A DNA stretch of 58,736 nt from an uncultured Spirochaetaceae bacterium (GTDB lineage: Bacteria > Spirochaetota > Spirochaetia > Sphaerochaetales > Sphaerochaetaceae), in NCBI GenBank assembly GCA_944392985.1, contig CALXYL010000014.1, forward strand, positions 1 through 58,736, written 5' to 3'. The number at the start of each line of letters is the position of its first letter. Within the stretch, counting starts at the first letter, position 1. Positions 45 to 38,230 of the stretch are shown piece after piece. The position numbers were made by a program, and so were the translations under genes. The notes beneath the pieces were generated by a model that saw nothing but the letters and a program-made list of their open reading frames with translations, searched no databases and was not told where the DNA came from.

Positions 45-479
45 CTAGTTTTGCACCGAAACTTTGAAAGTCAGGTAATCATCAAGATAATGAATTCTTG
101 AATAATACGAAAGAATATCAGAAACACAAGGAATTTTGTGTCCATCAACAATGTAAGTGTGAGTTGAATCAATATATTCTACAGTATGTCCATTAATGGT
201 TATCTTTGAATTCTTGCCACTAAGGTGATTGGAATTTGTGGGAGAGTATGAAGGCTGGTAAATATGATTTGCATTTGTCCGAGTGCTTGTGTTTTGTGAT
301 ATTCTTTCTTGCTGAGTCCTTATAGATTCTTTTGAATTTACCTGCTCTGATTGAAATTGTGATTCTGAGGTATCGTTATTCCTGTATTTTGATTTGTCAT
401 CTTTGTTTGTATCATTGTTCTTAGAGCTGATAGTGACCAGCATAATGACTATGGCAATAAATAATATGATAAAACCCAT
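45..479 (-). CDS. small membrane-anchored protein, possible nuclease-domain fragment
   Basis: Not assigned to a family with certainty. The protein is 144 residues: an N-terminal hydrophobic helix (about residues 2-18), a long Ser/Thr/Asn/Gln-rich low-complexity linker (about 20-90), and a short C-terminal module. That module reads INGHTVEYIDSTHTYIVDGH and then KIPCVSDIL. The pattern YxVDGxxxPSVTxIL is typical of the start of phage-type PD-(D/E)XK exonucleases, but here the protein stops soon after it, so no catalytic core is present. The gene is AT-rich and divergent from the helicase. It may be a truncated remnant or a stand-alone membrane protein using that small fold. The stop codon lies inside the window, so it is not cut by the edge. 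Confidence 0.55.
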   Translation of the reverse strand: MGFIILFIAIVIMLVTISSKNNDTNKDDKSKYRNNDTSESQFQSEQVNSKESIRTQQERISQNTSTRTNANHIYQPSYSPTNSNHLSGKNSKITINGHTVEYIDSTHTYIVDGHKIPCVSDILSYYSRIHYLDDYLTFKVSVQN

Positions 480-547
480 ATATTGATCCCCAATTTATGC
501 TTATGCTTTGGGAATAATAGTTATTTTGTTTATGCTTGAGAAGTATT

Positions 548-574
548 ATGAAAAGCATAACAGTTGATTATTGA
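548..574 (+). CDS. possible 8-codon leader ORF overlapping the helicase start
   Basis: An ATG at 548 opens an eight-codon frame, MKSITVDY, whose TGA stop (572-574) overlaps the alternative TTG start of the helicase at 571. It lies 9 bases ahead of the GTG start at 583. The Shine-Dalgarno sequence is weak. It could couple translation to the helicase or be chance. Confidence 0.2.
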   Translation: MKSITVDY

Positions 575-582
575 GGTATTCG

Positions 583-3297
583 GTGGATAGATCGGAATGT
601 TTGATATTCCTTAAGGGTCAGGAAAAGACCGAACAGATTCTGTCTTTGGCTGAAGATCACAAGACTGGATTGTATCATGTCCGATTCAAAGGATCGGATG
701 AGAAGGAATATAGTTACAGAGCTGAGGATGTAAAGATTTATAAACCCGATGTCCTAAGCCCCGATTTCTACACGGTCTATCTCGATGGAAAAGAGTTCAA
801 TGGTCTTAATGCAATATACAGATATGCAGAGGCCGGATACTTCTATCTTGAACGTGGTGGAAAATCTTATCTGATTAATGATAGTAAGCTGAAGATTTCT
901 CATTCAGCTCTTGAAAACAAGAATGCTTCTGCTGTTCTTTCATACCTGAAAGAAGTATCTTTTGTAAGCTCAATAAGAGATGAGGAAGGTAATAGAATAC
1001 TTTCTAAGCGATACAATAAGATAAACTTTATAGATGATGGGTCAGTGCTTGCTGATTATCTTTCCGGAAATAGTGGTGTTCAAATACATTCTGCTCCGGC
1101 TCTTGTCATATATCCATTTGGCATAAATAAAAGCCAGAAGAAAGCTGTTATCAATGCTTTATCGAATAAAATGAGCGTGATTCAAGGTCCTCCCGGAACT
1201 GGGAAGACACAGACAATTCTCACTATCATTGCCAACCTCATATTGCAGAAGAAAACTGTGGAGGTCGTTTCAAATAACAATTCAGCTGTTGATAATGTGA
1301 AAGAGAAACTTGAAGGATATGGTCTTTCATTTCTATTGGCAACTCTTGGCAGTGCTGAGAACAAGAAAAGGTTCATTTCCTCCCAGACTGGTGATTATCC
1401 TGATATTTCTGATTGGGAAATCGATGAGGATGGTATAAAGGATCTTTGTTCAAGGATACAGGAAACAAGCAATGCATTGGATGAATACTATGCCATTCAG
1501 GAGGAGATGCAGAGAAAACGATTGGAGCTTTCGGAACTTGATATCGAGATGCTCCATTTTTCGGCTATCTGTTCTTTTTCATCTGATGGGAAGAGAAATG
1601 AATTGCCATCAGAGCGTCTTATGGAATTGCTGCAGGAATATAGTTTCTACTTTCAGAGACATGATGTTTTCTCGTTCTTCAGGAGGGTCGTTGCAGCTTT
1701 TGCTCAGAAAAGCATGGGGTGGAAAGAATCAGGAGAACCCGGAATGGATATTATCCAGCATCTCCAATGGCGGTATTACTGCAAGAGAAAGAATGAGCTT
1801 CAGCAGCAAATTGAGTCTCTGGATAGGCAGATTGCAGATTTTGATATGCATGGCAAGGAAAACCAGCTGTCGGATTATTCCATTAAACTCCTTAAAGGGA
1901 TTCTGTATGGAAGGTTGAAAGGAAAAACAGCTAGACCAATACTTGCAGAAGAGGATTTATGGAGAAATCCAGATTCTATTATCGCAGAGTATCCAATAGT
2001 CACAAGTACTGCATTCTCTTCATCTTCATCGTTAGAAAACATAATGTATGACTATGTGATTATAGATGAAGCATCTCAATGTGATATAGCAGCAGGAGCG
2101 CTTTCTCTTTTTTCTGCAAGGAATGCTGTAATAGTCGGAGATATTAAGCAGCTGCAGAATGTAGTGACTGAAGATGACAGAAAATATGCGGAATCTGTTT
2201 TCAGGAAATATTCTATACCTGAAGCCTATAGATATTCTTCATTCTCTTTTCTTGCCTCTGTTTTGAAACTCTTTCCTGCTGTACCAACCGTCCTGCTTTC
2301 TGAGCATTATAGATGCCTGCCGCGGATAATAGGTTTCTGCAATGAGAAGTTCTATGAGAACAACCTTATCATAATGACGAATGATAAGAGTAAGGATGAA
2401 CTTGGACTGTTCCTTACAGCTCCAGGGTACCACAGCAGAGAACATGCGAATCTACGGCAGGCTGAAGTCATTGCAAAGGAGATTCTTCCAACTCTTGAAA
2501 AGGAGGATGGAAGCGTTGGAATCATTACGCCTTACCAGAATAATGCAAGACTGATAAGAGAGATAATAAAACGGGATGATATAAAGGTTGACACGATCCA
2601 TAGTTTTCAGGGACGGGAGATGGATACAATAATCTTCTCAACTTCTGATGATGTGGTTACTGATTTCTCTGATTCTCCAATGCTTATCAACGTGGCGGTA
2701 TCACGAGCGAAAAAACGATTCATACTGGTAGCTTCATCAGATCCTCAGCCAGCTAGGAGCAATGTGCATGATCTTATCTCATATATCTCTTACAACAGTT
2801 TCAAACCAATCAGATCTGGTATCGTTTCAATCTTTGATATGCTGTATGAACAATCAACATCTGCAAGGATTGCGTTTCTATCAAAGCATAGAAAGGTATC
2901 GGATTATGATTCGGAGAACCTGATGTTCTCCGCACTTGAGGACATTATCAATTCAAAATCATTTCAGAGATACGGTTTCAGAATAGCCTGCCATTATCCA
3001 ATAAGGTATCTCTTCCGTGATACCGAACTTCTTGGAGAAGAGGAGAGAATTTATCTATCAAGGTCTGGAACTCATGTTGATTTCCTGATTTACAGGGCAA
3101 TAGGCAGGATTCCCGTTGTTGCTATTGAAGTCGATGGTTTTCATTATCATAAGAAGGGTAGCAGGCAGCATGAGAGGGATATCATGAAGGATTCGATCTT
3201 CTCAGGATATGGCTTGCCGCTTTTGAGATTCGCCACAAATGGAAGTGGAGAAATCGAAGAGATCAGCGGTTTCCTGAGGGAATATATCTCTCGGTGA
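583..3297 (+). CDS. SF1 (Dna2/UPF1-like) helicase with C-terminal PD-(D/E)XK-type nuclease domain
   Basis: About 904 residues. An uncharacterised N-terminal region (about 1-190) precedes an AAA_11/AAA_12-type superfamily 1 helicase core: Walker A GPPGTGKTQT near residue 205, Walker B VIIDEASQCD near 495, and later motifs VDTIHSFQGREMDTI and NVAVSRAKKRF. A coiled insertion (about 280-440) lies between motif I and motif II. The last 130 residues resemble DUF2726/REase-type nucleases: HVDFLI, then AIEVDGFHYH and a Q-ERD-KD pattern. The fusion suggests nucleic-acid unwinding coupled to cleavage, as in several phage-defence proteins; that role is inference. GTG at 583 is chosen because GAGG sits 6 nt upstream; TTG 571 in the same frame lacks a ribosome site. 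Base composition is clearly more AT-rich than the rest of the window, a sign of transfer. Confidence 0.8.
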   Translation: MDRSECLIFLKGQEKTEQILSLAEDHKTGLYHVRFKGSDEKEYSYRAEDVKIYKPDVLSPDFYTVYLDGKEFNGLNAIYRYAEAGYFYLERGGKSYLINDSKLKISHSALENKNASAVLSYLKEVSFVSSIRDEEGNRILSKRYNKINFIDDGSVLADYLSGNSGVQIHSAPALVIYPFGINKSQKKAVINALSNKMSVIQGPPGTGKTQTILTIIANLILQKKTVEVVSNNNSAVDNVKEKLEGYGLSFLLATLGSAENKKRFISSQTGDYPDISDWEIDEDGIKDLCSRIQETSNALDEYYAIQEEMQRKRLELSELDIEMLHFSAICSFSSDGKRNELPSERLMELLQEYSFYFQRHDVFSFFRRVVAAFAQKSMGWKESGEPGMDIIQHLQWRYYCKRKNELQQQIESLDRQIADFDMHGKENQLSDYSIKLLKGILYGRLKGKTARPILAEEDLWRNPDSIIAEYPIVTSTAFSSSSSLENIMYDYVIIDEASQCDIAAGALSLFSARNAVIVGDIKQLQNVVTEDDRKYAESVFRKYSIPEAYRYSSFSFLASVLKLFPAVPTVLLSEHYRCLPRIIGFCNEKFYENNLIIMTNDKSKDELGLFLTAPGYHSREHANLRQAEVIAKEILPTLEKEDGSVGIITPYQNNARLIREIIKRDDIKVDTIHSFQGREMDTIIFSTSDDVVTDFSDSPMLINVAVSRAKKRFILVASSDPQPARSNVHDLISYISYNSFKPIRSGIVSIFDMLYEQSTSARIAFLSKHRKVSDYDSENLMFSALEDIINSKSFQRYGFRIACHYPIRYLFRDTELLGEEERIYLSRSGTHVDFLIYRAIGRIPVVAIEVDGFHYHKKGSRQHERDIMKDSIFSGYGLPLLRFATNGSGEIEEISGFLREYISR

Positions 3298-5067: not shown

Positions 5068-6150
5068 ATGAAGAAGCTCATGATAACTGTTTCCTGTCTG
5101 TTGCTTGCCATTGGAAGCGTTTTCGCATCGTTCACATTCTCCTTCGGGCCCCATGAGCCGTATTTCAATCCATACACACTTGATCCATATGGATTCAATG
5201 GATCACGTCTCAAGGCTTTCTACATGACCGGAAGCAATCATCTCGGGAACAATATGATGATCGAGGACTTCAATAAGCCTGTAGATGACCCGGATCATTA
5301 CAGGATCGTGGAATACCGCGATTTCAATGACAAGTTCCGCCTGATGCTGAATCTCCGTACAGGATTCGGTGCATCGGTTCTCCGAATGGGATGGCCGGAA
5401 TACTTCATGGTTGACTTCGCTGTACACGGGTCGCTCAATACCGTTTTCGCCACGACAGGCGGCGCGGATAATCTCGGATTCGATGGGTCGTTCTTCGTAG
5501 GCGGGGAGATGCGGATCATGGATATGTTCACGCTCCATGCTGGGATCAGGCATTTCTCCGGCCATGTCGGGGATGAGATTTCAAATGATATCATGAAGGA
5601 TATAGGGCATCTGAACTGGGAACCTGTCAGCTATACCCGCGACAATATGCTCGAGATAGGGCTTGGCTATGATGGCTGCAGGTATTTCGATATCTGGGCT
5701 TCATTCATCATGCCGCTTCCCGGCATGTGGTGGTCACCATACTTCAGCCAGCCTGACTGGATCCATACCACCGGTGGAAATCCTCAGTACACGCCTGACC
5801 GCAATCCTGCGCAGTGGGCTGTGCGCGGTGCTTATGGGGATGGCTATGGAGGCTATATCATCCAGCTTGATGCCAATGTCCGCTATCCATTTCTCGAGAG
5901 ATATGAGGTTTACGCCACTGGGGAGCTGAAGCTGCATCAGGATGGCATGACGAACCACACCCTTTCCCCGGATGATGATACAGCGAGATGGGAGCCTGAG
6001 TTCTCCGCGGCTATCGGATTCTCCTTCGTGAATGCAGTTGAGAACCTGGATCTCACGATTGAGCTCGGATACCACAATGGACGCTTCCCATTGCTGAACT
6101 TCTTCTGGAAGAGGATAGAGAGCTTCTCCCTGTCATTCATCATCAGATAG
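5068..6150 (+). CDS. DUF1207-like outer-membrane beta-barrel protein (second of tandem pair)
   Basis: 360 residues with signal peptide MKKLMITVSCLLLAIGSVFA. It shares with the preceding gene the motifs GLNTVFA/GSLNTVFA, GFDG, IRHFSGHVGDE, the Tyr-Thr-Arg strand, LKLHQDG and YHNGRFPLLNFFWKR. It is therefore a duplicated paralogue that has diverged mainly in loops. Placement in the outer membrane is inferred from the signal peptide and amphipathic strands. GGAGG lies 8 nt ahead of the ATG. The 3' end overlaps the convergent methyltransferase gene by 18 bp, so the two operons meet here without an obvious terminator. Confidence 0.8.
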   Translation: MKKLMITVSCLLLAIGSVFASFTFSFGPHEPYFNPYTLDPYGFNGSRLKAFYMTGSNHLGNNMMIEDFNKPVDDPDHYRIVEYRDFNDKFRLMLNLRTGFGASVLRMGWPEYFMVDFAVHGSLNTVFATTGGADNLGFDGSFFVGGEMRIMDMFTLHAGIRHFSGHVGDEISNDIMKDIGHLNWEPVSYTRDNMLEIGLGYDGCRYFDIWASFIMPLPGMWWSPYFSQPDWIHTTGGNPQYTPDRNPAQWAVRGAYGDGYGGYIIQLDANVRYPFLERYEVYATGELKLHQDGMTNHTLSPDDDTARWEPEFSAAIGFSFVNAVENLDLTIELGYHNGRFPLLNFFWKRIESFSLSFIIR

Positions 6151-7065
6151 CTGTTCCATTGGAATATCTTCCTTGATCCTCTTCTCTGCGGTTCTGACAT
6201 TGGCATCGTCGATGTCGATTCCTATGAATCTGCGTCCCAGCCGTTCTGCCGCAAGGCATGTCGTCCCTGACCCCATGAAAGGATCAAGGACTGTCTGTCC
6301 CGGCAATGTCACGAGATCGATGAGCATCTCCATAAGCTGAAGCGGCTTCTGCGCTATGTGAAGGCCGTGGTCGCTGGAATCGGTGTGGACCTTGAGCATG
6401 TTTGAGAATACCGCGGCAGACGAATGCTGTCTGTTGTATTCGCCAAGAGCTTTCTCGTTCCAGGCGCCAACCCCGAATTCGCGGACATTGTCAGCGATTG
6501 TGCCACCAGTGCGGTAAGGCTTCTGAAACCATAGGATCGGTTCAAAGAGCGGTCTGGGATTTGCCACTCTCCAGCCACTCCAGGCTGCTGCATTCCTGTC
6601 ATCACCCCTTCTTTCATAGATGGCTGACAATCTCTGCGCCCTGTTGGGAGCGGCTTCCTTCTCCCATGCAAGCATCTCCTTGAAGGTGAATCCGCTGTCC
6701 TCCATCGCCGCGATGCAGCGGTGTGCGAATCGTCTCCCTGCGAAGATCAGGCAGCTGCTTCCCGGCTTGAGCACCCGTAGCCATTCCGGCGCCCACGAAG
6801 CGCACCATTCCTGATATTCCAGTGGGATCCTCTTGTCGGCTTCGCTCCAACCATTCAAAGGCTTGCCCCTTCTTCTGAAAAGAGCGCCATTCTGGCATTG
6901 TGCGGCGGAGCTTCCACCATAGGCGGAGTTTGTATTCCTATGAAGCACATCCCAGTCATCGCATCCGATGCCATATGGGATATCCGAAATGATCGCATGT
7001 ATCGAGGAGCTCTCGATTTCCTTGATGATGGAGATCGAATCGCCGGTAATCAGTTTCCCGTTCAT
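6133..7065 (-). CDS. DNA N6-adenine methyltransferase of a HindIII-type R-M system
   Basis: 310 residues, close to the usual size for a type II beta-class amino-methyltransferase. Motif IV is near the N-terminus as SDIPYGIGCDDW (DIPY instead of the common DPPY). The S-adenosylmethionine motif I is C-terminal: VLDPFMGSGTTCLAAERLG followed by RFIGIDID. This order defines the beta arrangement. Its ATG overlaps the stop of the restriction gene (ATGA, 7062-7065), so the pair is translated together with the endonuclease first. From the partner enzyme the target is inferred to be AAGCTT, protecting the host from its own endonuclease. No controller protein is seen. Confidence 0.88.
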   Translation of the reverse strand: MNGKLITGDSISIIKEIESSSIHAIISDIPYGIGCDDWDVLHRNTNSAYGGSSAAQCQNGALFRRRGKPLNGWSEADKRIPLEYQEWCASWAPEWLRVLKPGSSCLIFAGRRFAHRCIAAMEDSGFTFKEMLAWEKEAAPNRAQRLSAIYERRGDDRNAAAWSGWRVANPRPLFEPILWFQKPYRTGGTIADNVREFGVGAWNEKALGEYNRQHSSAAVFSNMLKVHTDSSDHGLHIAQKPLQLMEMLIDLVTLPGQTVLDPFMGSGTTCLAAERLGRRFIGIDIDDANVRTAEKRIKEDIPMEQLSDDE

Positions 7066-7925
7066 TCGGAGATTCCCTCCATGTATTTCCTGATCTGCGC
7101 TATCCTTTCGGAGATCCTTCTCTGCTTCAGCAGTTCCTCGATAGCCTCTTCCCTTGAAAGCTGCTTGATCCTATCGATTTCAGATTTCCAGAATGAGATC
7201 GCCTCATCGCCTTTTTCCTTTATCCTGTCTCTGGAACCCTTCAGAAAATCCTGAAATCCATCGCTATCCAAGCCGCATGAGGTCAGAAGGAAGTCTGTGA
7301 ATGGCCCGATAAGGCATTTCTTCCTTTCGCTGAACAGTATTTTTTCCCCATATGAACGGCTGAAATCCCATATGCATGATAAGGGGAAAGCAACTGTTTC
7401 CCTGATTCCATTCTTGATAAGGAATGAAAGATGTTCCCAGCTCAGGAGGCAGACATTCCTGTCCAGTGCCTGAGAATAGATCTGGCTGGATAATCGAGGA
7501 TATTGGAAATATGGGGAGCAGAGCACGGCAAACTTGGCATCCTGCCGCCAGTCGGAAAGTGCATTTACCTTGAAATCCTTCTGGTTCTTCGCTGTACGGC
7601 TCAGCCTGAATGCCTTTGCATCCGCAACCAGTGAATAATCATGATAAATGGACGCACATAGCACATCAGCTGAATCAGCTCGTTCCCTAAGAACGGTGGC
7701 TTTCAGGCCAAGTTCCCTGAAAGCCCTTGCAAGCACGGCATCAGTTGCTTTTGAGTAGAGCTTTTCCTCGGTGGAATCATGCTGTATTTCCTCCGGGATG
7801 ATCGATGCCTCATCCAATAGGGCAGGGAAGTCATCATATGAATCGATGAACTCCTCGATCCTGAGCGATGCAGAATCGAAATCCATCCCAGCTAGTTCCT
7901 GAATCCTTCCTACAAGTGTTCCCAT
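7062..7925 (-). CDS. HindIII-like type II restriction endonuclease
   Basis: 287 residues from ATG 7925 (294 from the in-frame GTG at 7946). It resembles HindIII over nearly its whole length: HDSTEEKLYSKATDAVLARAF, LVADAKAFRLSRTAKNQKDF, YFQYP, LLSWEHLSFL and the C-terminal TREEAIEALLK-like segment SREEAIEELLKQ. The HindIII catalytic residues Asp108, Lys110 and Asp123 correspond here to Asp and Lys of VADAK and the Asp of QKDFK, all present, so the enzyme should be active and should cut AAGCTT. The ATG start aligns with the HindIII start; both starts have weak ribosome sites. The gene is more AT-rich than its neighbours, suggesting acquisition. Confidence 0.9.
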   Translation of the reverse strand: MGTLVGRIQELAGMDFDSASLRIEEFIDSYDDFPALLDEASIIPEEIQHDSTEEKLYSKATDAVLARAFRELGLKATVLRERADSADVLCASIYHDYSLVADAKAFRLSRTAKNQKDFKVNALSDWRQDAKFAVLCSPYFQYPRLSSQIYSQALDRNVCLLSWEHLSFLIKNGIRETVAFPLSCIWDFSRSYGEKILFSERKKCLIGPFTDFLLTSCGLDSDGFQDFLKGSRDRIKEKGDEAISFWKSEIDRIKQLSREEAIEELLKQRRISERIAQIRKYMEGISE

Positions 7926-7979
7926 GTGCAGCCTGCTATCAATCACTCTAGCATGTTGCGCCTGTTTTGCGCCACATCA

Positions 7980-8687
7980 TCAGTGGGTGAGAATGGCTGT
8001 GGCCGGAAGGATGAGGCAGCATAGCACAGTGAATGCCACATCACGTTTGTGGATCTGGATAGGCATGGCATCAGTCCTTTCCGCCTTGGCGGAGAAGCCC
8101 TTTGACTCCATTGCTATCGAGAGCTCCTCTGACCATCTGACTGATTTCACAAGAAGCGGGGCAAGGAGCGATGGGGATATCGGGAATACCTTTATGCCAC
8201 GGGCCCGGAATGCCGCCTTCGTCCTCCTGTACTCCAGGGCCATATGCGGGAAGATCCCCCATGCTGCCAGAAGGCCATATGCGAATACCTGTGGAAGATG
8301 AAGTTGCTTCTGGAAGGATCGGACCATGATTATCCTGTCAGTCGTCAGAGCGAAAAGATAGCCAATGCCTGCATATGCCAGTACGCGGCTGAGCTGGGTG
8401 ATGCCGTTCATGATATGGCTGTTCCCGGCAATGAGGAATGCATCAGGGCGTACAGGCATCGCGCTTTCAGCTGTGAATCTATAGCCTGTGAAGAACATGC
8501 CGATCGCTGCAAGGAAAACAGGGACAAGGAGCAGGAGGAGCGTCTTTGGCTTCACTCCGGATGCAAGTATCAGCAGCATGCTTATGGCGAAGGCTGAGAG
8601 ATTCCAGAATGGATCCCTTATCGAAGCAAGGATCATCGTCACAGCAAGGAGCGATAGGAACTTACAGGCTGGATTCAGGGATCTCAT
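7980..8687 (-). CDS. ykoC: ECF transporter T component (YkoC/CbiQ-like)
   Basis: 235 residues with about five hydrophobic segments. The cytoplasmic loop RRTKAAFRARG and the C-terminal coupling-helix motif SEELSIAMESKGF are the paired Ala-Arg-Gly-type motifs of energy-coupling-factor transmembrane (T) subunits, which transmit ATPase movements to the substrate-binding S subunit. It is the last gene of a four-gene operon below a TPP riboswitch and overlaps the ATPase gene by 26 bp. By analogy with Bacillus ykoFEDC it is predicted to serve uptake of the thiamine pyrimidine HMP or thiamine. It sits in the inner membrane. Confidence 0.85.
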   Translation of the reverse strand: MRSLNPACKFLSLLAVTMILASIRDPFWNLSAFAISMLLILASGVKPKTLLLLLVPVFLAAIGMFFTGYRFTAESAMPVRPDAFLIAGNSHIMNGITQLSRVLAYAGIGYLFALTTDRIIMVRSFQKQLHLPQVFAYGLLAAWGIFPHMALEYRRTKAAFRARGIKVFPISPSLLAPLLVKSVRWSEELSIAMESKGFSAKAERTDAMPIQIHKRDVAFTVLCCLILPATAILTH

Positions 8688-10092
8688 ACAGCTTTCCCTC
8701 CTTTATGCCGAGTATCATGTCCGCATAGTCACGCGCAAGCTGCCTGTCATGCGTCGAGAATATCAGGGCGATACGCTTTTCCCTTGCCTGACGGCAGAGG
8801 GAATCCATTATAGCCATCGTGTTTCTCCTGTCCTGTGCGTAGGTAGGTTCATCACAGATAAGGCAGTGGCAGTCATAGGCGATCAGTGCCGCGGTCCCGA
8901 GCCTCCTCTGCTGTCCTTGGCTGAGAAGGTAAGGGGATACATCACGGTAGCGCCATAGCTTTATCGAGCGGAGTATCTCCTCGCTTTTCGACTCCGCTTC
9001 CGCCTCCCTTCTCAGGCTGGCGAGTATCTCTTCCCTGACAGTGCCGCCCACGAACTGATCCTGTGGATTCTGGGTGATGAATCCGATCCTGCCTATATCC
9101 GATCGGCGGAGGTGCTTCATGTTCCTTCCTTCAAGGATCGCTTTCCCTTCATATGGGAATATTCCTGAAAGCGTTCCGAACAGCGTGCTTTTCCCCGCTC
9201 CGCTTTCCCCGATGATCGCATATATCATCCCTCGGCGGAATGAAGCGGAAATGCCATTGAGAATCAGCTGATGTCCCCTTCTGACGGTCAGCTCCTCAAG
9301 CTCAAGCACCGTCTCCCCGGCTTCCAGAGGTTCAAGTGAGGGGGAGTAGGATCCACCGGGGGCGATGATGCCGCGGCTTTCAAGCCTTTCTGCTTCCAGA
9401 TGGGATGCATCGAGCCTTTCCTCCAGTATCTTCCCATCCTCCATCACGCATATGGAATCTGCTATCCCGATCCAGTTGTCCAGCCTGTGATCCACTGCGA
9501 GCACTCCAACGCCTTTCTCCCTGTGGAGCCTTCCTATGGCAGATGCAATCGCGCGCGCGGAATCATCATCTATGTTGGCGAATGGCTCATCGAGAAGGAG
9601 CCACTTCGGATCTATTGCAACAAGGCATGCGAGCGCGGCCTTCTGCTTCTCTCCGCCTGACAGGCTCAGGAGTGTCCTCTGCTCTAGCTCCTCGATGCCG
9701 CAGAATGAGAGGGCATGATGCAGCCTTTCCTCCATCTCCTCCTTCGGTACCGCGATGTTCTCCATGCAGAAGAGCAGCTCATTCCTCACAGTGTCCATGC
9801 AGAACTGCAGTTCAGGATTCTGGAACATCATTCCTGCAAGGCGGCACCTTTCTGGCGGTGCCAGTTCAGAGAGATCCCTTCCTTCCAGCAGCACCCGGCC
9901 CTCCAGAAGCGATCCCGCATTCTCAGGATAGAGCCCCGCCGCGATATACAGCAGCGTGGATTTGCCGCAGCCCGATGCTCCCGTGAGCACGGTGATGCCA
10001 GAGCTGTCGAAACTGCATGACAGGCCATCCAGCACTGGCTTGAGGCCCTCTGAATAGGAGAACCTCAGCCTGTCAAGGAGGATCATTCCCAT
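8662..10092 (-). CDS. ykoD: ECF transporter duplicated ATPase (YkoD-like, two ABC domains)
   Basis: 476 residues containing two fused ABC ATPase domains. The first has Walker A GASGCGKSTLL, signature LSGGEKQKAALA and Walker B WLLLDEPFAN. The second (from about residue 250) has GESGAGKSTLF, the variant signature LSQGQQRRLGTAAL and CLICDEPTYAQDR. Single-chain A1-A2 fusions of this length are the YkoD type that drives YkoE/YkoC vitamin uptake. Its ATG shares one base with the stop of the upstream ThiY-like gene. The adjacent T and S component genes complete the transporter. Confidence 0.88.
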   Translation of the reverse strand: MGMILLDRLRFSYSEGLKPVLDGLSCSFDSSGITVLTGASGCGKSTLLYIAAGLYPENAGSLLEGRVLLEGRDLSELAPPERCRLAGMMFQNPELQFCMDTVRNELLFCMENIAVPKEEMEERLHHALSFCGIEELEQRTLLSLSGGEKQKAALACLVAIDPKWLLLDEPFANIDDDSARAIASAIGRLHREKGVGVLAVDHRLDNWIGIADSICVMEDGKILEERLDASHLEAERLESRGIIAPGGSYSPSLEPLEAGETVLELEELTVRRGHQLILNGISASFRRGMIYAIIGESGAGKSTLFGTLSGIFPYEGKAILEGRNMKHLRRSDIGRIGFITQNPQDQFVGGTVREEILASLRREAEAESKSEEILRSIKLWRYRDVSPYLLSQGQQRRLGTAALIAYDCHCLICDEPTYAQDRRNTMAIMDSLCRQAREKRIALIFSTHDRQLARDYADMILGIKEGKLYEIPESSL

Positions 10093-10976
10093 CAGTCAAA
10101 ATACCTGTTGGTGTACTCGTTGCTGCGGCGATGCGAGATCACTCCGGCAAGGCACATGTAATCAGCCATCCTTTCCCACCGTTCAGGCTTTATGCGTCCC
10201 CATCTGCCTTCCTCATCGAGAAGGATGGGTGCAAGATGCTTCTGGCTTCTTATCAGGAGGGAGGCAGTCGAATCCTCCGGCATCATGTCCCTGACCTCAA
10301 GCACTGCCGCCTCCGGATCCGATGCGGCCTCGCGGTATGCATTGTCCAGCGCCCTCAGGAATCTCCTGACGGCATCCTCCTTGTTCCTGAGCGTCTCAGG
10401 TGAGGCGGCCATGGCAGGTGCGCAGAAGTCGAAGATGGGATCAATATCCCCAAGATTGAAGTAGTTGATCTCCTTCCCCGCTTCAAGAAGGACCTGGTTC
10501 TCCCAGTTCTCGTATACCCATGTGGCATCGGCTTCCTTCCCGAGCGTTGACAGGATATCACCGACATCCATGTTGATCAGCTTCACCTTTGAATAGTCTC
10601 CGCCGTCCTTCTCTACGATCCTGCCGATTGCCTTGTGGAACCATTCGGGAGACCAGTGCGTAAGTCTCTTTCCCTCAAGCTCCCTTGGCCTTGTGATTCC
10701 TGCTTCCTTCAGCGAGACGATGCCGGAATCGCATTTCTGCGTCAGCACGGCGATGCATGTCATTTCCTCCCCGTGCTCCATGCAGTCGAGCATCGATATC
10801 TCGGGGCCGCAGACGAAATCCGCATCCCCGAGGTGCATCGCGCCATGCACCTTCCCTGAGATCTCCACATCAAGACCTGCATCCCTGAACCATCCTCTCT
10901 TCTGGGCAAGAAGGAATCCTGTATGATTCGTATTCGGAAACCAGTCGAGTATTACCTTGAGCCTGTCCATCGTCAT
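10092..10976 (-). CDS. ThiY/NMT1-like pyrimidine-binding protein without signal peptide
   Basis: 294 residues of the NMT1/THI5-like periplasmic-binding-protein fold: VILDWFPNTNHTGFLLAQKRGWF at the N-terminus, then GDADFVCGPEISML, LEGKRLTHWSPE, ATWVYENWE and FDFCAPAMAAS. ThiY proteins bind N-formyl-4-amino-5-aminomethyl-2-methylpyrimidine or HMP. The protein starts directly with the first beta strand (MTMDRLKVILDW); there is no signal peptide or lipobox, so it is predicted to be cytoplasmic. It lacks the PLP lysine and CCCFC motif of yeast THI5, so it is unlikely to be the HMP-P synthase. The start overlaps the YkoE stop by 4 nt (ATGA). In Bacillus the comparable operon carries cytoplasmic YkoF instead. 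Confidence 0.8.
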   Translation of the reverse strand: MTMDRLKVILDWFPNTNHTGFLLAQKRGWFRDAGLDVEISGKVHGAMHLGDADFVCGPEISMLDCMEHGEEMTCIAVLTQKCDSGIVSLKEAGITRPRELEGKRLTHWSPEWFHKAIGRIVEKDGGDYSKVKLINMDVGDILSTLGKEADATWVYENWENQVLLEAGKEINYFNLGDIDPIFDFCAPAMAASPETLRNKEDAVRRFLRALDNAYREAASDPEAAVLEVRDMMPEDSTASLLIRSQKHLAPILLDEEGRWGRIKPERWERMADYMCLAGVISHRRSNEYTNRYFD

Positions 10977-11593
10977 TCCTCCTCTTCATCGTATACCCTG
11001 CCAATATCAGCAGAGGCCCCGATGGCATAGTTCCTGACGACGCCTGTTCTCGCCAGTGCGTTGCCAGACAGCGTACAGACCACGCCCGAGAAGAGCGCCG
11101 CGCTTATGAAGCGCACGGAAAGCTGACCGATAAGCAGGGAAGGGGAGAGTGTTATGTAGTTCAGGTAGTACAGCTCATAGCAGAAGATGAGCAATGCGGA
11201 TGCGATGCCTGCCAGAACCATGGAAATGATATTCCACTTCCTGTATCTGAATGCGGCGAATACGGCTTCTGCGCCAAGGCCCTGGATAAATCCTGTAAGC
11301 ACGACTGTCAGCCCGCCTGAATTCCCCATCAGCAGCTCTATCGCTGATGCCAGCATCTCCGTGATGAGAGCGACGCCCGGTTTCCTTATTATATATGCAG
11401 CGAGTGTAGCCGCCATGAACCAGACACCATAGATGATCTCGAATCCGAAGTTCGCAAGCCCAAATGGCGTCAATGCCGTAGAGAGTGCAAGCCCTCCCTG
11501 GAATACAGCCATGTAGACTGCCGCGAACACTACGCCAAGGATCGCCATCATTATGACATCCTTGAGCTCCCACGCTTTCCTTTCCTTTGCCAT
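10973..11593 (-). CDS. ykoE: ECF transporter S component, HMP/thiamine (YkoE-like)
   Basis: 206 residues, first gene of the operon. After a charged start (MAKERKAWELKDVIMMAI) there are about five to six transmembrane helices; the segments FGFEIIYGVWFMAATLAAYI, GLTVVLTGFIQGLGAEAVFA and FRYRKW match the YkoE family of integral-membrane substrate-capture subunits for hydroxymethylpyrimidine or thiamine. ATG 11593 is preceded by AGGAGG about 10 nt away; frame open further upstream runs into the riboswitch and is not coding. A TPP riboswitch and attenuator directly precede it. Confidence 0.88.
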   Translation of the reverse strand: MAKERKAWELKDVIMMAILGVVFAAVYMAVFQGGLALSTALTPFGLANFGFEIIYGVWFMAATLAAYIIRKPGVALITEMLASAIELLMGNSGGLTVVLTGFIQGLGAEAVFAAFRYRKWNIISMVLAGIASALLIFCYELYYLNYITLSPSLLIGQLSVRFISAALFSGVVCTLSGNALARTGVVRNYAIGASADIGRVYDEEEE

Positions 11594-11621
11594 TTCCTTA
11601 AAACCTCCTGGCAGGATGATT

Positions 11622-11653
11622 GAAAAAAGCCGCACAGCCTTCGCTGAGCGACT
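11622..11653 (-). terminator. Attenuator terminator of TPP riboswitch
   Basis: On the minus strand AGTCGC-T-CAGC, loop GAAG, GCTG-T-GCGGCT forms a strong hairpin followed by six T. It lies between the TPP aptamer and the ykoE start, the position of an expression-platform terminator that would stop transcription when TPP is bound. Confidence 0.85.
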
Positions 11654-11675
11654 TTGCGTGCAGATGTGCACGGAA

Positions 11676-34455: not shown

Positions 34456-34499
34456 ACTTCTATATGCGCCGCTCCTGCTCCATGAGGTGAATGATTCAT
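34452..34499 (-). CDS. Possible 15-codon coupling ORF between thiQ and barrel gene
   Basis: MNHSPHGAGAAHIEV begins at an ATG that overlaps the thiQ TGA and ends at a TGA that overlaps the ATG of the next gene (ATGA at both ends). No homology is recognisable. It could carry ribosomes from thiQ to the barrel gene, which otherwise has only a weak ribosome site. Confidence 0.25.
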   Translation of the reverse strand: MNHSPHGAGAAHIEV

Positions 34500-35476
34500 T
34501 CAAGGTTCAGCACGCTTTCCCTTAGAATCATCACGGTGACTGTCTTGCGTCTCGGCTTTGTCGCGCTCATCGACAGCAGAGGATACCCTTGGTATTCAAG
34601 GCCGAGCAGATACCCTGATCCAGTGAATTCGCATGAGATGATCTGCGCATCATTGAGGATCAGATGCATTGTGTACATGTCAGGGTTTATCGGCTCTTCG
34701 GAGATCACGGCATCCTCCGGGCGGAAGAAGATCGATCCTGTCATGTTCTCATAGACAAGATGCGCCGGCAGTGAAGTTCCCTCTCCCGTGAAGAAAGCAG
34801 TGAACAGATCCTTCGGATGGCGATACAGCTCCTCAGCCGTTCCCATGGCGACTGTCGCTCCATCGTGCATTATCAGGATGGAATCCGAGATGGCGAATGC
34901 CTCCTCCCTGTCGTGCGTGACGTATATCATCGTCGTTCCAAGTGTATCGTGGATTGCCCTGATCGAGCTTCTGATGCTCTTCCTGAGGGGCGCATCAAGG
35001 GCGGAAAGAGGCTCATCCAGAAGCAGTATCCGCGGCTCTGCTGCCAGAGCCCTTGCAAGCTGCACACGCTGTGCCTCCCCTCCGGAGAGGGATGTGACAG
35101 AGCGCTTGCCATAGCCTTCAAGCCCGACAAGGGAAAGCAGCGCATCCGACAGCTTCTTCCTCTCCGATGCCTTCTTCTCCTTCATGCCGAACTGGATGTT
35201 GCGCTCAGTGTTCATGGAAGTGAAGAGAGTGAAATCCTGGAATACCATCCCGATTCCCCTGTCCTGTATCCTCTCGTTCGTGATGTCCTTCCCATCGAGC
35301 GTGATCGTTCCTCCATCCGGCTTGTCAAGGCCGGCGATGAGCGACAGCAGTGTTGATTTGCCCGATCCGGAAGGGCCTATGACGCACAGGAACTCCCCCT
35401 CGTCGATGCCGAATGAAGCGGATAGCGTGAAATTCCTGTATCTGCGTTCAAGGTTCCTGATCTCAAGAAACGGCAT
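34496..35476 (-). CDS. thiQ: Thiamine ABC transporter ATP-binding protein
   Basis: 326 residues. ABC domain with Walker A GPSGSGKSTLLSLIAG, signature LSGGEAQRVQLARAL, Walker B RILLLDEPLSALD and the switch His in YVTHDREEAFA. A C-terminal TOBE-like extension (residues about 240-326: IFFRPEDAVI) makes it longer than E. coli ThiQ and similar to Fe3+/sulfate-type ATPases. Its place below thiB and thiP and a TPP riboswitch indicates thiamine uptake. ATG 35476 has AAGGAGG 5 nt upstream and overlaps thiP by 14 nt. Confidence 0.88.
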   Translation of the reverse strand: MPFLEIRNLERRYRNFTLSASFGIDEGEFLCVIGPSGSGKSTLLSLIAGLDKPDGGTITLDGKDITNERIQDRGIGMVFQDFTLFTSMNTERNIQFGMKEKKASERKKLSDALLSLVGLEGYGKRSVTSLSGGEAQRVQLARALAAEPRILLLDEPLSALDAPLRKSIRSSIRAIHDTLGTTMIYVTHDREEAFAISDSILIMHDGATVAMGTAEELYRHPKDLFTAFFTGEGTSLPAHLVYENMTGSIFFRPEDAVISEEPINPDMYTMHLILNDAQIISCEFTGSGYLLGLEYQGYPLLSMSATKPRRKTVTVMILRESVLNLE

Positions 35477-37091
35477 TCTTCCTTCCTCCTTCTCCAATCC
35501 AGAAGATGATCAGGGCACAGCTTAGAAGTATCGTGCCAAGAGCGGCAGCACCCTGGTAGTTATATGAGCTGATCATCCGGTAGATCAGTACCGGCAGCGT
35601 CGTCACATGGCCATCGGAAAGCGTCAGTGTCGAGTTCACCTCCCCAAGGGACAGGGCGAATGAGAACGCGAACGCCTTCCTCATATATGGCCTGAGCATC
35701 GGCATCTCGATCCTCCTTGCAGTCCTTGATGGGGATACGCCAAGAGTGTAGGATGCCGCGGCGAGGGAAGGTGGTACCGTCCTTGCCCCCGGCAGGATGG
35801 TCCTCACTGCAAATGGAAGCACTATCGTGAGATGCGCTGCCGTCACCATTAGATATGAGATGATGATCGAATCATGTGCAAGGAACACGGCAAGCAGCGA
35901 GAAGCCAAGGCCCAGCATCACCGAGCCCGTAGCCATCGGAAGTGACGCGAATACCGGAAGGATCCTTGAGCCGGTCTTTGCTGCGGAGAGCGCGATGCGG
36001 GATCCGATGAGAACGGACAGCAGCGATGTGGCAAGCGCGATGCAGAAGCTGTTGATGATGCCGTTCATAGCCGTCCCCATCATACCCGTGCCACCCTTCG
36101 CGATATCCTCCCATGCCTTGAGAGTGAATGCCCCTGCCTTCGTGAAGAATGCCCTGTAGACGATGGAGAGCATCGGGGGAAGTATGAAGAGGAGGATCAG
36201 CATGGAAAGAAGAAGAGCGGCAACAGCATTCCTCCCTTTCGCCTTTGAAAGCTCCTTCTGCCTTCTTGAGGCTTTCGCTTCCCTCCTTGTCCTGCTTGAC
36301 GCGATGAGCAGCAGTCCTGTCACGAAGAAGGAGAACAGCGAGAGAGCCGCGGCGCCTTCCCTGTCCACGCTGATATGCACCCTCCTGTAGATCTCCGTCT
36401 CGAATGTTGAGTACGCGGGGCTTCCTCCCAGCACGAGGATGATGGAGAAGGAAGAGAAGCAGAAGAGGAAGATGAGGACGAACGCCGAGATGATCGATGG
36501 TGAAAGACGTGGAAGCGTGACGGTGAGGAATGTCCTGAAACGTCCCGCGCCAAGCGTGTATGCCGCCTTCTCCGGGGTATCCGGGAGCTCTGTCCACGCA
36601 TTCGTGATCAGAAGGAATGCGATCGGGAAGTTGAGATACACATGGGCGAGGATTATCGCCTTGAACGAGTAGAGGATCGATATGACTGTGTAATCCCTCC
36701 CTGTCAGGCGCATCAGGAATCCATTGAGGAAACCATTGTTGCCATACCATATGACAAAGCCAAGCACGACGAGTATGGATGGTATGGTGAACGCCAGTCC
36801 GGAAAGTGTCAGGAGCGCGCGCCTGCCGGGGAATGTGTAATGGGAGAAGAAGGCAGAAAGCGGCAGTGCCACCGCCGTGGATATCAGCGCGGAGAGGAGG
36901 GATTCCTCAATGGTGAAACCAAGCAGCCGATAGGTATAGCCGTCGTTGACGACATCCACCAGTGCCTTGCCGCCATCCTTCAGCGCATAGCTGAAATTGA
37001 ATAGAAGAGGTATCAGGAAGAGGATGAGGAGCAGCAGAAGCCCCGGAAGCGCTCTGAGCCTGTAGTATGCGGAACCTGCTTTCCTCATCAT
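35463..37091 (-). CDS. thiP: Thiamine ABC transporter permease
   Basis: 542 residues with about 12 transmembrane helices arranged as two fused permease halves, each with a conserved cytoplasmic EAA loop (AAYTLGAGRFRTFLTVTLPRLSP and AAASYTLGVSPSRTARRIEMP). This double-permease form is the ThiP/CysTW-like type. Inner membrane. GGAGGAGG directly precedes the paired ATGs at 37091 and 37088. Confidence 0.9.
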   Translation of the reverse strand: MMRKAGSAYYRLRALPGLLLLLILFLIPLLFNFSYALKDGGKALVDVVNDGYTYRLLGFTIEESLLSALISTAVALPLSAFFSHYTFPGRRALLTLSGLAFTIPSILVVLGFVIWYGNNGFLNGFLMRLTGRDYTVISILYSFKAIILAHVYLNFPIAFLLITNAWTELPDTPEKAAYTLGAGRFRTFLTVTLPRLSPSIISAFVLIFLFCFSSFSIILVLGGSPAYSTFETEIYRRVHISVDREGAAALSLFSFFVTGLLLIASSRTRREAKASRRQKELSKAKGRNAVAALLLSMLILLFILPPMLSIVYRAFFTKAGAFTLKAWEDIAKGGTGMMGTAMNGIINSFCIALATSLLSVLIGSRIALSAAKTGSRILPVFASLPMATGSVMLGLGFSLLAVFLAHDSIIISYLMVTAAHLTIVLPFAVRTILPGARTVPPSLAAASYTLGVSPSRTARRIEMPMLRPYMRKAFAFSFALSLGEVNSTLTLSDGHVTTLPVLIYRMISSYNYQGAAALGTILLSCALIIFWIGEGGRKNAVS

Positions 37092-37103
37092 CTCCTCCTC
37101 CTG

Positions 37104-38111
37104 TCAGTCAGTCATTATGGCAAGCCAGGCTTCCTGAAGCTCCTCCGTTTTCTCAGGAGAGGTCGCACCGCTCCTGAAGAGGATCTCCGGCTTCGGCGCA
37201 TAGTCGAATGCGCTCGGAAGCTCGATGGCGCCATTGGCGGGGTACATCGAGTTCGCAATCGCGATATCGAGCTGGGCCTCTGTGAGGATGAAGTCAACGA
37301 ATCTCTCCGCTTCCTCCCTCATGTCGGTGCCCTTGACGATGCCGATGCCCTCGATCGTTGCCTCGTGCCCCTCTGGGAATACAAGCGCCTGGAAGCGCGT
37401 CGTATCCTCATTCATTACATGATACACAGGGCTTGTCGTATAGGAAAGCACTATCGGAGCCTCTCCCTCTGTGAAAAGCCCATATGCTGAGGACCATCCA
37501 TCGGCAATCGTCAGCGCATTCTCCTTCATCGTTTCCCACCATGCCTCGAACTCAGCACCATCTCCAAGGATGTTGTATGTCCAGAGCAGCAGTCCGAGTC
37601 CGACAGAGGAAGTGCGCGGATCGATGAGGATGACCTTGTCCCTGTATTCGGGGGAAGTGAGATCGCTGAGCGACTCCGGCTTGTCCAGTCCGCACTCAGA
37701 GTCCCATACGAAGGCGAAGGCACCGTAATCGAATGGAAGAAGGCGGTTCTCAGGATCGAACTTCAGCTCCTCCGGGATATCGGCAAGGCAAGGGGAGTCA
37801 TAGCTTTCAAGATATGGATATGCCCTGTAAGCGAAATCATCCGTGATTCCGAGGATGACATCTGCATCGGTTGCTTCTCCTTCAAGCTCAACGCGGGAGA
37901 TCATCTCAAGTGCGTCGCCTGCGGTGACGAGATTGACGCGGATGCCCGTCTCTTCCTCGAACTTAGGCACGAGAGTGCCACCGGGACCCCAGTCGCCGGA
38001 GAATGAGTCATAGGAATAGACAGTGAGGACATCCTCCTCAGCTGCTCCTTCAGCAGCAAGCGTAGCAGCTGACAGAAGCACGATCAATACGGCAAAGAGT
38101 GCTTTCTTCAT
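37104..38111 (-). CDS. thiB: Thiamine ABC transporter substrate-binding protein
   Basis: 335 residues. Cleavable signal peptide MKKALFAVLIVLLSAATLAA without a lipobox Cys, so the protein is a soluble periplasmic binder. VYSYDSFSGDWGPGG, KFEEETGIRVNLVTAGDALEM, LPFDYGAFAFVWDSE and YTTSPVYHVM are ThiB/TbpA features. AAGGAG is placed 7 nt before the ATG. It is the first gene of thiBPQ and directly follows a TPP riboswitch. Confidence 0.93.
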   Translation of the reverse strand: MKKALFAVLIVLLSAATLAAEGAAEEDVLTVYSYDSFSGDWGPGGTLVPKFEEETGIRVNLVTAGDALEMISRVELEGEATDADVILGITDDFAYRAYPYLESYDSPCLADIPEELKFDPENRLLPFDYGAFAFVWDSECGLDKPESLSDLTSPEYRDKVILIDPRTSSVGLGLLLWTYNILGDGAEFEAWWETMKENALTIADGWSSAYGLFTEGEAPIVLSYTTSPVYHVMNEDTTRFQALVFPEGHEATIEGIGIVKGTDMREEAERFVDFILTEAQLDIAIANSMYPANGAIELPSAFDYAPKPEILFRSGATSPEKTEELQEAWLAIMTD

Positions 38112-38149
38112 AGGAAGCTCCTTGATGTGGATTATCCGGGGATTGGGAA

Positions 38150-38222
38150 TATGCCGTTCCCTTCGCTGGTATTACCCAGATCAGGTTCGAGGGTATGATC
38201 TCAGGCTTACGCCACCCCTAGA
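38150..38222 (-). promoter_or_regulatory. TPP riboswitch upstream of thiBPQ
   Basis: Minus-strand THI-box: GGGGTGGCGTAAGCCTGAGA, then TACCCTCGAACCTGATCTGG and GGTAATACCAGCGAAGGGAA. No T-tailed hairpin separates it from thiB, so control is probably at translation initiation, unlike the first riboswitch. Confidence 0.95.
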
Positions 38223-38230
38223 CAGCTGCA

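Follow-up and report, generated by a model that had tools for sequence, protein, structure and literature searches.

Does a restriction enzyme leave a legible trace in the genome that acquires it? The question is raised by an operon resembling the HindIII restriction-modification (R-M) system in an uncultured Spirochaetaceae bacterium, located within a stretch of 58,736 nucleotides (here referred to as the window) that seemed on first reading to lack the recognition sequence AAGCTT. The analyses below make it very probable that the operon encodes an orthodox Type II R-M system belonging to the HindIII family, one that was horizontally acquired from gut bacteria and has been active long enough to purge AAGCTT.

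Identity of the Endonuclease and Methylase

The genes for the endonuclease (R) and the methylase (M) and the adjoining features are:

7062..7946, minus strand: restriction endonuclease gene R, HindIII family (PF09518 match and alignment to HindIII)
6133..7065, minus strand: DNA adenine methyltransferase gene M, predicted m6A at AAGCTT (PF01555)
7062..7065, minus strand: 4-bp overlap (ATGA) shared by the stop codon of R and the start codon of M
7980..8687, minus strand: CbiQ-type transporter gene (PF02361, E 9.6e-14)
5068..6150, plus strand: outer-membrane-like gene, convergent to M

The first-pass annotation had placed a HindIII-type operon at 6133-7946, and both open reading frames are indeed intact there, as separate genes side by side in the order R to M. 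R encodes 294 amino acids from a GTG start at 7946 (an alternative ATG lies at codon 8), and M encodes 310. R matches PF09518 with an E value of 8.7e-64 and 215.9 bits (curated cut-off 25.3 bits) over profile positions 16-282 of 285. The alignment to HindIII proposed in the first pass showed 116 of 284 aligned residues (41%) to be identical to the PDB chains of HindIII (E 1.5e-63), an enzyme of 300 amino acids from another host, Haemophilus influenzae (PF09518; PDB 2e52, 3a4k). VADAK and QKDFK of R align gap-free to HindIII, in line with the earlier statement that the three HindIII catalytic residues are kept; we take these to be catalytic residues of the PD-(D/E)XK type. The long matches to HindIII also noted at that time are represented by the block VADAK.FRLSRTAKNQKDFKV, in which there is a single mismatch. 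The catalytic residues of HindIII-type enzymes have been described previously (PMC12294265).

M matches PF01555 (E 2.3e-44) and carries motif IV, DIPY, at residue 28 and motif I, DPFMGSG, at residue 261, which is the beta-class order. DIPY is motif IV of AAGCTT methylases (PMC12294265), whose class and motif have been reported for M.HindIII, M.EcoVIII and M.LlaCI (PMC5974420; PMC12294265). M is 57% identical over 291 amino acids to the methylase of a HindIII-family system on an E. coli plasmid (CP098986.1), and is the only strong N6_N4 methylase in the genome (G000). Homology, supported by the genome composition described below, thus suggests that the R-M pair is specific for AAGCTT. R would cleave at A^AGCTT, as its homology and the specific loss of this hexamer indicate, and M is predicted to be an active enzyme forming m6A at the first A.

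The E. coli plasmid systems of the HindIII family (EcoVIII type) have an R about 41% identical to the one studied here, and the DIPY motif is common to both. In CP098986.1, however, a mobilizable plasmid of 4.3 kb, R and M are convergent and a small ORF precedes R, whereas the genes described here are in tandem with a 4-bp overlap and are chromosomal.

Operon Organization and Genomic Context

The CbiQ-type gene is located 33 bp upstream of R and closes an ECF/NMT1 transporter cluster (7980-11671), and the R-M genes may be transcribed from the transcript of this upstream transporter operon. Promoter-like sites between 5500 and 12500, including those before R or M, showed no excess over shuffled sequences. 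Between the R-M operon and its neighbours, no gene for a regulator was apparent. A riboswitch over the transporter operon was looked for and rejected. The sole TPP element, above the Rfam threshold, is at 38140-38229 on the minus strand, upstream of substrate-binding protein and ABC transporter genes (34496-38111).

On the other flank, the 3' ends of M and the outer-membrane-like gene overlap by 18 bp. In the congener G050 the outer-membrane-like gene is followed by other genes, without R-M. A clean insertion site for the R-M genes was not obtained; the ECF genes of G050 and G069 do not adjoin outer-membrane genes.

The operon had been described as more AT-rich than its neighbours, which is correct for R (48% G+C, compared with 50-56% in neighbouring genes) and does not extend to M (54%). 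The third-position G+C of both genes (0.54 in R and 0.61 in M) is near the values of their neighbours, and the genes have therefore partly adapted. A separate segment of the window at 45-3297, which holds a 908-aa ORF, has a G+C of 0.33-0.40, far below the rest of the window, and may be acquired.

Depletion of AAGCTT in the Window and the Genome

Counting confirmed that AAGCTT is absent from the window. Dinucleotide shuffles gave an expectation of 12.8 +/- 3.9, close to the dozen or so estimated in the first pass, and the maximal-order Markov and order-3 models gave 17.7 and 23.1, respectively. The one-base variants reported as occurring a few dozen times each do so, as do their complements (GAGCTT/AAGCTC 37/36; CAGCTT/AAGCTG 26/29). 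In a sample of 238.7 kb, consisting of the window and nine random 20-kb stretches, there was likewise no AAGCTT, although the maximal-order model predicted 86.6 copies and the order-3 model 107.4, and the z of AAGCTT was the most negative of all hexamers.

A count over the whole genome against a Markov expectation had been proposed; this was carried out in part, by direct counting, and yielded 25 AAGCTT in the 1.96 Mb of G000 (39 contigs, 96% complete), so that a normal frequency was not seen in the rest of the genome either. Genome-wide expectations, which rest on the sampled stretches, are ~710 (712, scaled from 86.6 per 238.7 kb) or ~430 (from base composition), and the observed/expected ratio (O/E) is therefore ~0.04-0.06. 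This is far below the avoidance limit of 0.78 used by Rusinov et al. (2015; PMC4687349), whose statistic differs from ours.

AAGCTT in Related Genomes

Among 139 genomes of the family, a PF09518 match was found in G000 only, and the methylase gave only weak, partial matches in the other members. The other genomes hold between 184 and 2980 AAGCTT each, with the sole exception of the congener G046 (74). The nearest relatives by UvrB (~95% identity) have 470-640 AAGCTT per Mb, and congeners with 93-95% identical UvrB have 279-874, compared with 13 in G000.

The same pattern was evident site by site. At aligned positions between the window and eight congeners, none of the 85 AAGCTT sites of the congeners is kept in G000, compared with retention rates of 17.5% for other hexamer palindromes, 29% for AAGCTC and 20% for AAGCTG. 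At 24 of the 85 positions G000 has AAGCTC or GAGCTT, one transition away. Because the relatives share ancestry the 85 sites are not independent, and we therefore attach no formal probability to them. These observations agree that AAGCTT has been eliminated from the core genome of the system's carrier and not from relatives without the system, G046 being the exception.

In G046, both R and M were undetected, and its stretches with a G+C of at least 0.50 contain 2 AAGCTT in 153 kb. This genome is ~87% complete, so a HindIII-type system may have been lost or may merely be unassembled. Trees of proteins and DNA from the window region place G046 as sister of G054 with support of 100/100 (91/93 with UvrB alone), which rules out that it is a sister of G000 sharing an ancestral system. 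The trace in G046 is therefore no evidence for an older system in the G000 lineage. Two further hexamers are rare in stretches L124-L133, L176, L194 and L195 of G046, GTATAC (0 vs. 21-27) and GGATCC (1 vs. 20-41), and all three depletions may be the trace of lost or unassembled systems. Avoidance can outlive an R-M system, leaving traces of systems since lost (Rusinov et al., 2015; PMC4687349).

Residual AAGCTT Sites

The 25 residual sites are unevenly spread, with 17 of them in mobile or defence genes:

6 sites: Tn7-like transposon of contig 4 and its flanks
4 sites: candidate defence pair PDC-M46 (32-34% G+C)
2 sites: Type I restriction subunit gene
1 site: PDC-S18
1 site: endonuclease gene adjoining a cytosine methylase and Vsr
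1 site: IS110 transposase gene
1 site: TnpB gene
1 site: ORF adjoining an apparent IS200 transposase gene (read by eye)

The other eight are found in ordinary or uncertain genes. The location of the sites and the composition of the surrounding DNA suggest that late-arriving DNA is still unpurged of AAGCTT.

The Tn7-like genes, for a TniB-like ATPase, an integrase-core protein and TniQ, span L104:3167-9684 and L105 (contig 4, ~39-58 kb), and HNH, D12 methylase and phospholipase-D-like restriction-type genes are found near them. On contig 19, L167:623-4495 is a low-G+C restriction island with a cytosine-5 methylase and Vsr, and with two different endonuclease-like proteins that both match PADLOC model PDLC03508 and are possibly the halves of a two-subunit endonuclease.

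Origin and Other Carriers

A homologue search with one genome per species recovered 80 homologous endonuclease loci, in most of which the methylase follows directly on the same strand. In the methylase tree, M is placed among animal-gut Oscillospiraceae, Lachnospiraceae and Synergistota. Since the system is unique among the 139 family genomes and its methylase is nested in gut Bacillota and Synergistota, it was most likely acquired horizontally. The first-pass annotation had called the system active and old in its lineage; activity is probable, and the age holds for the species branch and not for the genus, whose other sampled members lack the system. Tandem operons of gut Bacillota MAGs (L014, L016 and L023) have the same gene order, with M 70-73% and R 54-59% identical, in genomes of another phylum with AAGCTT O/E of 0.03-0.09.

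AAGCTT counts in 50 homologue-carrying genomes ranged from 3 to 1701. Using a rough expectation from the base composition at the locus (~10 kb each), O/E was <0.1 in 14, <0.3 in 25 and at least 0.6 in 17 of the 50, the last group indicating that possession alone does not predict avoidance. That half of the carriers fall below 0.3 fits the published rate, close to it, of avoidance in 47.9% of orthodox Type II systems (PMC4687349), and avoidance has been found to rise with the residence time of a system (PMC4687349). Rusinov et al. (2015; PMC4687349) likewise reported strong host avoidance tied to the presence of a system, as well as relatives in which the site is avoided but the system is missing. 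Our case does not differ in kind from theirs; specific to it are the site-by-site comparison and the map of residual sites.

Proposed Course of Events and Alternative Explanations

We propose that the species represented by G000 gained the operon from gut bacteria (e.g., Bacillota or Synergistota) once it had diverged from the relatives sampled here. R would cut incoming DNA wherever it carries unmethylated AAGCTT, and M, by methylating the first A on both strands, would protect the DNA of the host. Sites left under-methylated after replication or dilution of M might be cut now and then. Because protection would never be perfect, each chromosomal AAGCTT would carry a small self-cutting cost, and selection could then have replaced the sites, mostly via one transition to AAGCTC/GAGCTT. 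The core genome is now nearly AAGCTT-free, with leftover copies mainly in DNA that probably arrived later.

Both the family and the effect are known, and the known picture of R-M site avoidance stays unchanged. The case is an unusually clear one and offers a clean natural example of an acquired restriction enzyme reshaping a genome. Within a well-sampled genus, a single species has gained the system and lost some hundreds of sites and its relatives keep theirs, so that individual sites reveal how fast and by which route AAGCTT was lost and where mobile DNA came in late.

A possible reading, though we favour it considerably less, is that the operon behaves chiefly as a selfish addiction element from which the host has escaped by purging its sites, loss of the system being no longer lethal once few sites remain. 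The small number of residual sites (25, with only ~8 outside mobile and defence genes) is compatible with such an escape, and G046, with so few sites in its stretches of at least 0.50 G+C, could be the state after loss, although this genome is incomplete. A defence role predicts the same purge, however, and the data do not separate the two.

It is improbable that another AAGCTT enzyme, either a second unrelated one or one lost earlier, caused the depletion, with the operon seen today as no more than a recent or inactive passenger. Such a history would account for G046, which shows the same depletion with neither R nor M found, given that avoidance can persist after a system is gone (PMC4687349), and the low G+C of R relative to its neighbours would suit a recent or inactive passenger. 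Against it stand two intact ORFs in which all recognised motifs are present, an M at local G+C, the firm grouping of G046 with G054 instead of G000, and the single strong N6_N4 methylase found in G000. There is a negligible chance that the depletion merely follows from the genus's codon usage or base composition, which is excluded as the main cause, since AAGCTT is plentiful in congeners at 93-95% UvrB identity, AAGCTC and AAGCTG persist at aligned positions where AAGCTT does not, and no other hexamer of the random sample reaches so low a z, even though further hexamers (e.g., TTCGAA and GAAGAC) are low in G000.

Depletion of GAAGAC and TTCGAA

GAAGAC, a BbsI-type site, occurs 4 times in the window (at 1203, 12569, 14893 and 50951) compared with ~30 expected. 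Genome-wide there are 384 copies in G000 and 263 in G046, and at least 903 in each of the 46 other congeners; among these 48 genomes, the depletion of GAAGAC marks exactly the AAGCTT-depleted pair. Searches of G000 with PF01555, PF07669 and PF02384 gave no candidate for a GAAGAC enzyme, and a weak PF01555 match on C8 was rejected as its ORF resembles, by eye, an RNA methyltransferase. The shared depletion may reflect chance, a pair of systems travelling together or a shared pressure. We regard it as doubtful that AAGCTT and GAAGAC were purged together and independently in the non-sister genomes G000 and G046, with the HindIII-type and GAAGAC systems travelling or kept as a pair and with G046 shedding the HindIII-type system after its sites were lost. 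If the GAAGAC depletion holds up, it would point to a second system. TTCGAA is also scarce: it is missing from the window, where 8-13 copies would be expected, and occurs 153 times in the genome; at aligned positions, 0 of 35 sites of the relatives are kept.
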